A stretch of 64,000 bases of DNA from Peribacillus sp. ACCC06369 (GTDB taxonomy: Bacteria; Bacillota; Bacilli; Bacillales; DSM-1321). The stretch spans positions 4,836,001 through 4,900,000 of the forward strand of contig NZ_JAUCEN010000002.1 of NCBI RefSeq assembly GCF_030348945.1. Direction: 5' to 3'. Below the pieces are notes generated by a model. That model did not search any database, was not told the origin of the DNA, and was given only the letters and a program-made list of their open reading frames with translations. A program made the translations under genes and the position numbers. This document shows, one piece after another, positions 6,393 to 57,590 of the stretch; positions within the stretch are counted from its first letter, which is position 1; every line of letters starts with the position of its first letter.

Positions 6393-7300
6393 TACTCGTG
6401 AATTCGCGCTATTTACTCGTGTATTCGTACTGTTTTCTCGTGGTTCTGTAAGTTTACTCGTGAGTTCGCACTGTTTTCTCGTGGTTCTGTAAGTTTACTC
6501 GTGAGTTCGTGTTGTTTACTCGTGAATTCTGCACGTTTACTCGTGAGTTCGCGCTGTTTACTCGTGAATTCGTGTTGTTTAATCGTGAGTTCGTGCTGTT
6601 TTCTCGTGGTTCTGCAAGTTTACTCGTGAGTTCGTGCTGTTTTCTCGTGGTTCTGCAAGTTTACTCGTGAGTTCGTGTTGTTTACTCGTGAGTTCGTGCT
6701 GTTTTCTCGTGGTTCTGCAAGTTTACTCGTGAGTTCGTGTTGTTTACTCGTGAGTTCGCGCTGTTTACTCGTGAATTCGTGTTGTTTACTCGTGTATCGT
6801 GAGTTCGCACTGTTTTCTCGTGGTTCTGTAAGTTTACTCGTGAGTTCGTGTTGTTTACTCGTGAATTCTGCACGTTTACTCGTGAGTTCGCGCTGTTTAC
6901 TCGTGAATTCGTGTTGTTTAATCGTGAGTTCGTGCTGTTTTCTCGTGGTTCTGCAAGTTTACTCGTGAGTTCGTGCTGTTTTCTCGTGGTTCTGCAAGTT
7001 TACTCGTGAGTTCGTGTTGTTTACTCGTGAGTTCGCGCTGTTTACTCGTGAATTCGTGTTGTTTACTCGTGTATCGTGAGTTCGCACTGTTTTCTCGTGG
7101 TTCTGTAAGTTTACTCGTGTATCGTGAGTTCGCACTGTTTTCTCGTGGTTCTGTAAGTTTACTCGTGTATTCGTGCTGTTACTCGTGAGTTCGCACTGTT
7201 TTCTCGTGGTTCTGCAAGTTTACTCGTGAGTTCGTGTTGTTTACTCGTGAATTCTGCACGTTTACTCGTGAATTCGCGCTGTTTACTCGTGAGTTCGCTT
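6393..7300. repeat. tandem repeat array 1, about 43 units of ~21 bp, in the glpD leader
   Basis: On the plus strand the unit reads TTTACTCGTGAGTT plus a 7-bp variable part such as CGTGTTG. I count about 43 units. Most are 21 bp; units of the TTTTCTCGTGGTTCTG type are 20 bp, and three contain an extra TATCGTG insertion (28 bp). Variant cores carry GAATTC instead of GAGTTC. The array fills the region between the glpD start and its leader hairpin, so it would be transcribed as 5' UTR of glpD (reading CACGAGTAAA in the mRNA). It is not coding: frames through it give only repeat-derived low-complexity peptides. Confidence 0.95.
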
Positions 7301-7371
7301 ATATTCAAATGATTCATTTGTTCTCATAGTTTCTCATTCATATAGATATTAATATCCCTAATCTGCCTTTA

Positions 7372-7447
7372 AAAACAAAAAAAGAGAGACCATAAATGCA
7401 CATTATCGAATTCACGATAACGCATTCATGGTCTCTCCTGTTCTCCG
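7372..7447 (-). promoter_or_regulatory. GlpP-type antitermination leader of glpD (terminator hairpin)
   Basis: On the minus strand GAGAGACCATGAATGC (7437-7422) pairs with GCATTTATGGTCTCTC (7399-7384), followed by a T-run (7383-7372). The segment just before it reads GGAGAACAGGAGAG (7447-7434), matching GGAGACTAGGAGAT in front of the glpF leader hairpin. In B. subtilis GlpP with glycerol-3-phosphate lets polymerase read through such leader terminators. The same hairpin could also stop glpK transcripts. Confidence 0.7.
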
Positions 7448-7469
7448 GCCGAGTTATTAACTTGATTTC

Positions 7470-7498
7470 AGTATAGCACACTCCAGCTCATTTGAGAA
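7470..7498 (-). promoter_or_regulatory. putative glpD promoter
   Basis: On the minus strand TTCTCA (7498-7493), a 17-bp spacer and TATACT (7475-7470), with TG one base upstream of the -10 (extended -10, TGCTATACT). It sits between the glpK stop and the glpD leader hairpin, so glpD can be transcribed apart from glpFK. Confidence 0.6.
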
Positions 7499-7516
7499 AG
7501 AATTCACCTTGTTTTT

Positions 7517-9007
7517 TTATTTAAACGCCATTGCAGCGTGTACAGCTTTTTTCCAGCCCTCATATAATTTATCACTATCTTGCTCTGCCATGGATTGTTT
7601 GAAGGTTTTGTCCACCGCCCATTGCCGAGAAATTTCTTCTTGATCCTTCCAATACCCGACAGCAAGTCCCGCTAAATACGCAGCCCCCAATGCCGTAGTT
7701 TCGTTTATGATCGGCCTTTCGACAGGCACCCGTAATAAATCACTTTGGAATTGCATTAAGAAGTCATTCTTGACTGCACCGCCATCCACTCTCAATGTCT
7801 GCAGCTCGATTCCTGAATCCGCCTCCATTGCATCAAGGACATCCTTCGTTTGATACGCAAGTGATTCAAGTGTGGCACGAATGAAATGTTCTTTGGAGGT
7901 ACCGCGCGTCAAACCAAAAACGGCTCCCCGCACTTCACTGTCCCAATATGGAGTTCCAAGGCCTACAAAAGCCGGCACTACATATACTCCATCCGTACTT
8001 TCCACCCGTTTTGCATAGGCTTCGCTATCCTTGGCATCATGAAGCATCCGCAGACCATCTCGCAGCCATTGGATTGCGGAGCCAGCTACGAATATACTGC
8101 CTTCCAGTGCATATTCGACCTTCCCATTCAATCCCCAAGCAAGGGTCGTCAATAGTCCGTGGTCGGAACTGACAGCCTTTTCCCCTGTATTCATGAGCAT
8201 GAAACAGCCTGTGCCATACGTATTTTTGGCCATTCCTTCATTAAAGCAGGCTTGGCCAAATAATGCAGCCTGCTGATCACCGGCTGCTCCGGCAATCGGA
8301 ATAGATTGGCCGAAGAAATGATACTCGACCGTACGTGCATACTCCTCGGATGATGGTCTTACTTCCGGCAGCATCGACTTCGGTACAGTCAATATCTCCA
8401 GCAGTTCTTCATCCCATTTCAGTTCATGAATATTGTACATCAATGTCCGAGATGCGTTGGAATAGTCCGTTACGTGAGCCTTGCCTCCTGAAAGCTTCCA
8501 GATTAGCCAAGTATCGATGGTACCGAATAACAGCTTGCCTTCCTCCGCCCTTTGTCGTGCCCCTTCCACATTATCGAGGATCCATTTCACTTTCGTTCCG
8601 GAAAAATATGCATCTATCAACAATCCCGTTTTATCCCGGAATAAATCATTAAGTCCCTTTTCCTTCAAATCATCACAGATTTCACTTGTTTGTCTTGACT
8701 GCCATACAATCGCATTATAAACAGGAGTACCTGTCTCCTTATCCCAAACGACTGCCGTTTCACGCTGATTAGTAATCCCGATACCAGCAATTTGCTCTGG
8801 CTTTACACCGGATTCCGATAGTACACCGGCAATCACTGCCAGGATCGATCCCCAAATCTCATTGGCGTTATGCTCGACCCAGCCTGGTTTAGGGAAATGC
8901 TGCGTGAATTCCTTTTGGGAGGAATGGACGATTTCCCCCTTTTTGTTAAATAAAATCGCCCGCGAACTTGTTGTTCCTTGATCTAATGATAAAATATATT
9001 TTTCCAT
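7517..9007 (-). CDS. glpK: glycerol kinase
   Basis: The 496-residue FGGY kinase phosphorylates glycerol to glycerol-3-phosphate using ATP. Visible features: N-terminal phosphate-binding [12 protein letters not shown] (residues 9-20), [37 protein letters not shown] and C-terminal [20 protein letters not shown]. His230 in EYHFFGQ is the residue phosphorylated by HPr in Firmicutes glycerol kinases, so control by the PTS is expected. The ATG follows an AAAGGAGGGG site 21 bp after glpF, so the two form the glpFK operon. It ends before the glpD promoter. Confidence 0.98.
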
Positions 9008-56739: not shown

Positions 56740-56880
56740 CGGTATTCCCCCTTTTCTTAATAGTACCGACGTAAAAATTGGAAGAAAGTTACACTTCTTG
56801 ATTAAAGGGCATGTTTTATTTTCAGATGAAAAGGTAAAGGTATTAAGAACATCCAAACAATGAAGAAAGAAGATGATTGC

Positions 56881-57342
56881 ATGATGAACTACGGAAAATT
56901 AGCTAAAAGTGTTTTGGTACCTGTGGTCGGAGGTTCACTTGTAGGGATATTCGCCACAAGGAATTCAAAAGAAATTTATGACAAACTCAAGAAACCTGCT
57001 TTTGCTCCTCCTTCCTGGACCTTCCCCGTTGCTTGGACCGGCCTTTATACGATTATGGGAATAGCGAAATATCGCATTGCATCCAAAGAAAAAAAATCGA
57101 AGTCAGCTGAACTCCTCTACGATACTCAACTAGGGTTGAATTTCTTATGGTCTTTTTTATTCTTCAAATGGGGTTTGCGCGGAACAGCATTTATTGAAAT
57201 GGCTGCACTGCTGACCTTGATTACATTAACGGCATTCGAGTTTTATAAAATAGACCGTACATCAGGTTTAGCGATGATTCCCTATATCGCATGGGTCACC
57301 TTTGCATTGGGATTAAACTTTTCCATCTTCAGAAACAATTGA
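56881..57342 (+). CDS. TspO/MBR family protein
   Basis: The start is uncertain between ATGs at 56860, 56881 and 56884; 56881 is used because the TspO fold begins soon after. The protein of about 153 residues has five hydrophobic segments with the family motifs KLKKPAFAPPSWTFPVAWTG, YTIMGIAKYRI, LNFLWSFLFFKWGLRG and WVTFALGLNFSIFRNN. TspO proteins bind and degrade or transport porphyrins and are linked to stress control. It is divergent from the lipoprotein gene (start codons about 140 bp apart). Its terminator is followed at once by repeat array 3. Confidence 0.88.
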   Translation: MMNYGKLAKSVLVPVVGGSLVGIFATRNSKEIYDKLKKPAFAPPSWTFPVAWTGLYTIMGIAKYRIASKEKKSKSAELLYDTQLGLNFLWSFLFFKWGLRGTAFIEMAALLTLITLTAFEFYKIDRTSGLAMIPYIAWVTFALGLNFSIFRNN

Positions 57343-57349
57343 TCAAAAA

Positions 57350-57384
57350 AGGAGCGCCCCTTGTATTAGGAGCGCTCTCTTTTA
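57350..57384 (+). terminator. terminator of tspO
   Basis: GGAGCGCCCCTTG folds with GGAGCGCTC through GAGCGC/GCGCTC, then TCTTTT. Confidence 0.7.
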
Positions 57385-57386
57385 GG

Positions 57387-57590
57387 TTCACGAGTAAATT
57401 CACTTAACTCACGAGTAAATGTCCAATTTTCACGAGTAAACCCGCTTAACTCACGAATAAATGCTCAATTTTCACGAGTAAACCCTCTAAACTCACGAGT
57501 AAATGCTCAATTTTCACGAGTAAACCCTCTTAACTCACGAGTAAATGCTCAATTTTCACGAGTAAATCCGCTTTACTCACGAGTAAACCT
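57387..57590. repeat. tandem repeat array 3, ten units of 21 bp
   Basis: On the minus strand the units alternate between TTTACTCGTGAAAATTGAGC(A) and TTTACTCGTGAGTTAAGAGG(G), giving a 42-bp dimer with a 10- to 14-bp core identical to arrays 1 and 2. Ten cores are present, one with a base change (CACGAATAA on plus). The array fills the whole gap between the tspO terminator and the nucleotidase stop codon; no separate terminator for the nucleotidase gene is seen. Confidence 0.95.

Follow-up and report, generated by a model that had tools for sequence, protein, structure and literature searches.

To our knowledge, what most interspersed tandem repeats do in bacterial chromosomes has yet to be established, and the stretch of the soil bacterium Peribacillus sp. 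ACCC06369 analysed here (the window: 64,000 nucleotides, positions 4,836,001-4,900,000 of the main contig) raises the question at three places at once. What are the arrays of short units that lie there between genes, and does anything in the cell read them? The answer we favour, tentatively, is that they are vertically inherited rows of bendable DNA, which a putative DNA-binding protein would read at gene ends. The arrays are the following:

6391..7297, + strand: array 1, tandem units of 20-21 bp with the core TTTACTCGTGARTT, between a glpK-like and a glpD-like gene (both on the - strand)
20309..21059, + strand: array 2, tandem units of 20-21 bp, with an M4 peptidase gene on one side and a SET-domain gene on the other (both on the + strand)
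57387..57595, - strand: array 3, some 10 units of 21 bp that alternate between two forms (period 42), with TspO and 5'-nucleotidase genes converging on it

That the three belong to one family, as a preliminary description had proposed, is borne out by 70 matches to TTTACTCGTGAGTT (up to 2 mismatches) against 0.42 expected and a maximum of 2 in 100 shuffles. All 70 fall in arrays 1-3 (spans 6391-7295 and 20321-21058 on the + strand, 57406-57587 on the - strand), and the layout of open reading frames (ORFs) confirms that all three arrays are intergenic, as had also been claimed. Tandem Repeats Finder delimits array 1 at 6392-7297 (period 21, also 41), array 2 at 20309-21059 (periods 21, 83 and 104) and array 3 at 57387-57595 (period 42, with period 21 over 57388-57587). 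Core-like matches with up to 4 mismatches number 46, 36 and 10, respectively, at intervals of 21 bp (30, 24 and 9 times) and, in arrays 1 and 2, of 20 bp (12 and 11 times); three 7-bp intervals in array 1 come from overlapping matches.

Three loci is the count for the window and not the total. The main contig (5,466,422 bp) holds 330 exact cores against 0 in the reversed control, and a BLAST query consisting of part of array 2 hit it in 105 pieces (40 of the 41 first-look candidates were scored). Merged, these make up 34 array loci, in which about 811 units resemble the core (up to 3 mismatches) and single arrays have up to 87 units; arrays less similar to array 2 may be missing from this set. 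The core is thus not confined to the window, and the family stands as a genome-wide one.

Counted over the chromosome, the unit has a regular length, a constrained core and a free spacer. Among 769 intervals of at most 90 bp, 590 are of 21 bp, 66 of 20 bp, 36 of 19 bp, 12 of 18 bp and 4 of 22 bp, and 45 intervals of 39-42 bp conceal a more degenerate unit each. The earlier view that a 21-bp period puts each copy on the same face of the helix is hence right for most units, not for all. In 587 units from 32 arrays, core positions 2-11, 13 and 14 differ in 0.2-6.3 percent of within-array unit pairs, position 1 in 13 percent, position 12 (G or A) in 37 percent and the seven spacer positions in 26-49 percent; as the units were picked by core similarity, core diversity is understated here, to a degree bounded by the 45 concealed units, a first point against our reading. 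GC content at spacer positions 16-20 is high in 32/32 arrays (0.56-0.93, median 0.71, against 0.35 in other intergenic DNA), and the spacer words differ from locus to locus and repeat within an array. The dyad ACTC-GT-GAGT, to which the preliminary description drew attention, is imperfect. Of 590 units in our genome, 364 have a Watson-Crick pair at 5:12 and 226 have it broken, and the dominant core of the sister lineage (below) lacks the dyad; the dyad, or a hairpin, was rejected as the conserved feature on these grounds. A repeat-coding gene was rejected as well, since the 20-bp (66) and 19-bp (36) intervals shift the reading frame, which is not kept across units.

Concerning DNA shape, A/T content oscillates at 10-11 bp, with two cycles per unit. 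The second harmonic, at 10.5 bp, takes up 40 percent of the power in the A/T profile of the 21-bp unit (p 0.013 by permutation), and this harmonic ranks top in 8/15 consensus units from several lineages, which are not all independent. Over whole arrays, power at 10.5 bp is above that at 21 bp in 21/23, and it is below 4 in 8/23, those where off-phase units pile up. For segments of 210 bp, 133/144 exceed the 99th percentile of the background (1543 segments) in 10-11 bp A/T power. Predicted curvature reaches or exceeds the 98th percentile of the background in 24/25 arrays. Such phasing is suggestive of DNA that is bent or wrapped, and the location of the arrays suggests a link to transcription ends.

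The core differs between lineages. A loose dialect pattern, CTCGNNANTT-N9..12-CTCGNNANTT, was searched for in 22 genomes (G numbers) and gave 275 pairs in G031, 161 in the sister lineage G014, 104 in G035, 44 in G013, 36 in G016 and 25 in G019, low counts in G018 (20), G028 (9), G029 (2) and G027 (1), and 0 in the other 12; the reversed control gave 1 or 2 pairs in four genomes. Within our array footprints the variable dinucleotide is TG in 634/702 units and TG is dominant at 33/34 loci, while 24 regions of G014 show CC in 107/154 units, CG in 27 and TG in 5. Arrays of G014 stand at the junction of 13 of our 34 loci, all in the same orientation, and there our arrays are TG-dominant in 13 cases and those of G014 CC-dominant in 12, with one tied (L308). 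At 12/13 shared sites, then, the G014 core is CTCGCCAATT instead of CTCGTGARTT, and this dominant form has no dyad and is not self-complementary. That the core letters change as a set hints that something in the cell may read them.

A protein tree of glpD, covering 29 of 30 loci (the split G008 was omitted), places the CC/CG form in one clade (99/96) inside the clade of array bearers (100/99). For the CTCGTGA group two changes have to be assumed, and the tree does not establish a single origin; G035 and G028 (GCTCGTAAATT, with a 20-bp unit) sit apart, with array-less taxa between.

The arrays occupy positions that relatives share. The DNA that flanks ours aligns with records of named Peribacillus at about 80-95 percent. 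Compared with at least 120 named stretches (L numbers, also used for our loci), our loci gave 112 flank matches, 99 with an array at the junction, 75 of these with both flanks aligned; among the matches listed, named relatives carry arrays at the same site for 31/34 of our loci, and the orientation is the same in 108/108 of their arrays. These stretches were selected for having arrays and cannot reveal empty sites. At the glpD site (30 loci of the genus examined, the gene being found in 36), at least 2 units lie between glpD and the glpK terminator in 20/30 loci, those of G014, G018, G019 and G031 included. G004, G005 and G015 have no units there; 7 genomes further removed showed no terminator mark and at most one chance match. 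Plasmids and phages searched with array 2, and viral contigs searched with the array pattern, gave 0 matches, and an origin from any of these was rejected on that basis. The mobile repeat family that the preliminary description offered as its alternative is not supported in the sense of recent mobility, given the shared positions, the constant orientation and these null searches.

Within the genus the core is present in 20/36 genomes, against 0/7 from three other genera of the family, and the strict array pattern occurs in 3/299 genomes drawn from the order, all three in this genus. The scan of named genomes matched at least 120 stretches, and among the matches listed 119 come from Peribacillus or Bacillus sp. 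strains (P. simplex, P. frigoritolerans, P. muralis, P. butanolivorans and sp. Bi96; Bacillus sp. BA3, ISL-34 and SD075) and one from a Bacteroidetes metagenome-assembled genome. On the latter (contig WRLB01000035.1, L083:6700-6830) a hairpin and a T run are followed by a few 20-bp units with TTACTCGTGAATTGCTCG and then by a few 21-bp units of other sequence, i.e. two-turn arrays behind a gene end, outside Firmicutes. A wider search matched 56/397 genomes, many by a single pair, and its reversed control also scored (e.g. 26 in G213 and 24 in G185), so that small counts there carry no evidence. Similar 20-21 bp arrays were met in other families in G380, G087, G180, G124, G185, G121, G147 and G131.

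The arrays are also not placed at random with respect to genes and replication. By simple gene calls (from a small script, no validated gene finder; two flanking calls are tiny ORFs of 31 and 17 aa), 14/34 arrays lie between convergent genes against 39/242 in the background (p 0.0017) and 2/34 between divergent genes against 60/242 (p 0.014); in tandem gene pairs, arrays are antisense to the genes in 12/18, which is not significant. The contig begins with dnaA (TIGR00362) and has a dif-like site at 2,676,924, and with these marks the T-rich form faces the origin at 25/34 of our loci (p 0.009). In G014, 37/41 arrays follow the same rule (25/25 in a first set, 12/16 in the other 0.99 Mb of its main contig, where arrays at about 4.23, 4.47, 4.56 and 4.75 Mb break it), taking dif at 2,366,061 and an origin assumed opposite, the contig start not being dnaA, and with about 7 of 161 pairs not located. 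Those G014 loci that match none of ours obey it in 23/27 cases, and pooling the distinct loci of both genomes gives 48/61 (p 8e-6). Between convergent genes, where gene direction offers no explanation, the pooled figure is 18/24 (p 0.023), our loci alone giving 9/14, not significant. In G016, 20/26 core places obey the polarity, at sites that overlap ours. The region 2350000-3740000 of our chromosome (25 percent of the contig, holding the dif-like site) has no array found by BLAST with array 2; the chance of this is about 5e-5, a pattern noticed after the fact.

The neighbours of the three arrays in the window are, with genes assigned by Pfam:

4691..6343, - strand: FAD-dependent oxidoreductase, glpD-like (PF01266, PF16901), its start 48 bp from array 1
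7399..7424, - strand: terminator-like hairpin from a pattern scan, downstream of the glpK-like gene and about 100 bp from array 1
7517..9007, - strand: FGGY carbohydrate kinase, glpK-like, beside array 1
18574..20217, + strand: M4 (thermolysin-type) peptidase, beside array 2
20236..20275 (approximate), + strand: long-loop stem followed by a run of T, between the M4 peptidase gene and array 2, seen by eye
21333..21743, + strand: SET-domain protein, beside array 2
56860..57342, + strand: TspO/MBR family protein, beside array 3
57352..57377, strand not assigned: terminator-like hairpin beside array 3 (the scan reports the - strand, the stem being symmetrical)
57594..61412, - strand: 5'-nucleotidase / metallophosphoesterase, 1272 aa, beside array 3

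The claim that the arrays adjoin terminators stands for arrays 1 and 3 by the pattern scan, although hairpins in the array 1 region are no commoner than chance (2 found, 1.8 in shuffles); beside array 2 the scan reported none and the stem was seen by eye only. Two further short tandem repeats lie in the window, at 15170-15219 and 18347-18401, with units of 20 and 22 bp and about 2.5 copies each. Elsewhere, 6S and T-box RNAs lie near scanned arrays, and at L168:5204-5728 a 174-aa glycine-rich ORF with no Pfam match lies between two arrays, beside a thrS-like gene.

A fixed core with free spacers, together with a joint core change at shared sites, implies something acting on all loci, and a DNA-binding protein would be the simplest such agent; an arrayed binding site therefore remains the leading reading. 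This keeps the main part of what had been proposed for the window, one family (here seen to be genome-wide) of intergenic arrays near gene ends with two turns per unit, and drops its dyad. We picture the arrays as old chromosomal loci that a single Peribacillus clade has inherited vertically, every one of them a series of sites for a protein acting in trans. The unit would be two helical turns in which two AT blocks enclose a block containing CTCG and a GC-rich spacer of free sequence follows; such DNA is predicted to bend in one direction twice per unit, with most cores on the same side. Binding by such a protein would keep the cores uniform, and an array with protein bound may adopt a bent or wrapped shape next to transcription ends, where it could hold supercoils or mark a chromosomal position, a putative role in topology or organisation. 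Possible but doubtful is a broader version, a chromatin-like recognition code in Bacillales, in which two-turn arrays would be coated by a protein whose specificity changes with lineage, the core being rewritten together at shared sites, with a direction set relative to replication and a position at the ends of transcription units. The 20-21 bp arrays with related cores in other Bacillales families, e.g. (R)CTCGT(R)AATT, would then be further dialects.

Several results weigh against this account. Unit counts are equal in only 2/99 comparisons and different in 97/99, among the matches listed, and at the glpD site the array spans 2 to 47 matches across genomes, which is odd for a needed site, and has been lost in G004. 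The polarity is broken at 9/34 of our loci and in 4/41 G014 arrays. About 15 percent of intervals are of 18-20 bp, hence out of exact phase, and the second harmonic reaches p <0.05 in only 4/15 consensus units (our own, G014, G013 and G121). As a 21-bp repeat is curved in any base order, column-permuted units serve as the control for curvature, and these are beaten at p <0.05 in only 9/25 arrays. Finally, no dedicated family recurs among the 133 proteins flanking the arrays (up to 2 per side): comparing them all-vs-all yielded 13 pairs at E 1e-5, which by eye, on the sequence starts, look like transporters, regulators or enzymes, and none of which recurs. No candidate emerged for the nucleoid or chromosome-organising protein proposed for the window.

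The main rival, and a quite possible one, is a family of functionless satellite-like repeats, whose arrays are resized by slippage and unequal crossing-over and survive where they do least harm, at gene ends and not at promoters, with rare inter-locus copying or biased slippage on the CTCG core keeping cores alike. The scarcity of equal unit numbers, the higher-order periods of Tandem Repeats Finder, the avoidance of divergent gaps (2/34 vs 60/242) and the degenerate units seen by eye at the array edges of L044 all fit it, as does gene loss between two arrays in our genome. At the site of our locus L160, six named stretches (L044, L046, L077, L082, L112 and L143) carry two arrays 1.03-1.08 kb apart, with a NERD-domain ORF between them in L044; ours is a single array beside the 6S RNA gene, without the NERD ORF, a layout as a deletion between two arrays would leave. 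Similarly, L109 and L141 have 2.8-3.1 kb with ORFs (ABC-transporter-like by eye) between two arrays, and our locus L151 has one array and lacks the stretch. Mutation alone, however, should not spare the core while scattering the spacer; inter-locus copying would bring spacers along, yet spacer words are locus-specific; and neither the joint change of cores at shared sites nor the polarity is expected from such repeats.

Less probable is that the arrays are platforms for gyrase wrapping, AT/GC phasing alone attracting DNA gyrase; the enzyme would then relax supercoils where transcription units converge, the role proposed for BIME-2 in E. coli. The 10-11 bp A/T oscillation and the enrichment between convergent genes agree with it, and in E. 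coli, as far as the available part of PMC6379681 reports, GC content varies at gyrase sites with a phased period of about 10.75 bp, and these sites are enriched in BIME-2 and downstream of transcribed units; the same part states that attraction to downstream regions is not hard-wired in the motif scores. Gyrase is a serious candidate on grounds of shape, but shape alone requires no fixed core, no joint core switch and no polarity, and by itself would explain neither the first nor the last of these.

Improbable to a similar degree is a repeat, REP/RAYT-like or IS200/IS605-like, that spread by way of single-stranded DNA and is now mostly immobile; insertion into just one of the fork's template strands would then set the polarity. 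The polarity itself, found also between convergent genes, the 27/40 G014 loci unmatched to ours and the lagging-strand targeting by IS608/ISDra2 described in the accessible portion of PMC6006769 speak for it; hairpin potential is not conserved, positions are common across the clade with no plasmid, phage or viral match, and no transposase was noticed among array-adjacent genes (names by eye; no genome-wide transposase search was made). As separate observations, a 1,513-bp insertion-sequence-like stretch, 99.5 percent identical at the two places, lies beside the arrays of L306 and L316 (G014), and arrays of 3-5 units were seen by eye inside a longer interspersed element with shared sequence in L246, L256 and L265 (G013), L314 and L318 (G014) and L254 (G031 by search order). 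That the arrays act as RNA, transcribed units pairing mutually to stabilise or end transcripts, is very improbable: the + strand of array 2 folds better than 200/200 shuffles (z -5.4; - strand z -4.5) and that of array 1 reaches z -2.5, but the - strand of array 1 (z -0.8) and array 3 (z -0.5 and +0.6) do not stand out, the G014 core is not self-complementary, orientation against genes is mixed (12/18 tandem loci antisense), and no Rfam match falls inside the arrays at the 10 + 8 loci scanned, on which a known RNA was rejected as well.

Returning to the arrayed binding site, the value of the family is that close relatives keep arrays at the same sites but with a different core, so that what would be read, namely core, helical phasing and direction, can be told apart from the spacer letters and copy number, which drift. 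Should a protein read the core, its binding could be tested directly on the two dialects, and the polarity would link the system to the organisation of the chromosome.

As for known systems, the kind of element is already familiar from STAR and BIME, and no paper on this family was found. Literature searches with spellings of the core and its dialects gave nothing on Bacillus repeats, judged by title and the start of the abstract, in agreement with the preliminary description, whose author knew of no described system with this core; a search on Peribacillus intergenic tandem repeats found nothing, and looser ones nothing on point among the entries listed. CRISPR arrays also alternate repeats with variable spacers, but theirs are unique and of about 30 bp, whereas the Peribacillus spacers are of about 7 bp, a length that rules CRISPR out, and their words recur within an array. 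REP units are palindromic, unlike the Peribacillus unit, whose dyad is not conserved (pair 5:12 broken in 226/590 and absent from the G014 core). Like the BIME-2 / REP elements of E. coli, which the available part of PMC6379681 links to gyrase, the Peribacillus repeats are intergenic and at gene ends. The gyrase motif, as given there, shares phased GC variation near the helical period (10.5-10.75 bp), met in 133/144 array segments, but is degenerate, about 130 bp long and symmetrical, whereas the arrays have a fixed core every 21 bp. STAR elements of Staphylococcus aureus, in the accessible part of PMC3532100, are an intergenic 14-bp repeat with variable, locus-distinct spacers at 32-39 loci per genome, varying in number and of unknown function, with the core TNTGTTGNGGCCC (consensus T(G/A/T)TGTTG(G/T)GGCCC(C/A)), spacers of at least 40 bp, one copy at most loci and loci that differ between species. 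The Peribacillus arrays resemble them in being intergenic, at several tens of loci and with locus-specific spacers, and differ in their core (TTTACTCGTGARTT in 34 loci), in spacers of about 7 bp with 590/769 intervals of 21 bp and up to 87 units, and in sharing 31/34 loci with named relatives and 13/34 with G014. IS200/IS605-like elements have conserved terminal hairpins and a TnpA; on the Peribacillus side, the dyad is not conserved (no search aimed at a transposase was made). DNA uptake sequences are dispersed single copies and not phased tandem arrays, in which the Peribacillus motif differs from those of Neisseriaceae. It resembles them, as far as the portion of PMC3630211 at hand describes their dialects, in being one short motif that occurs genome-wide in lineage-specific versions.

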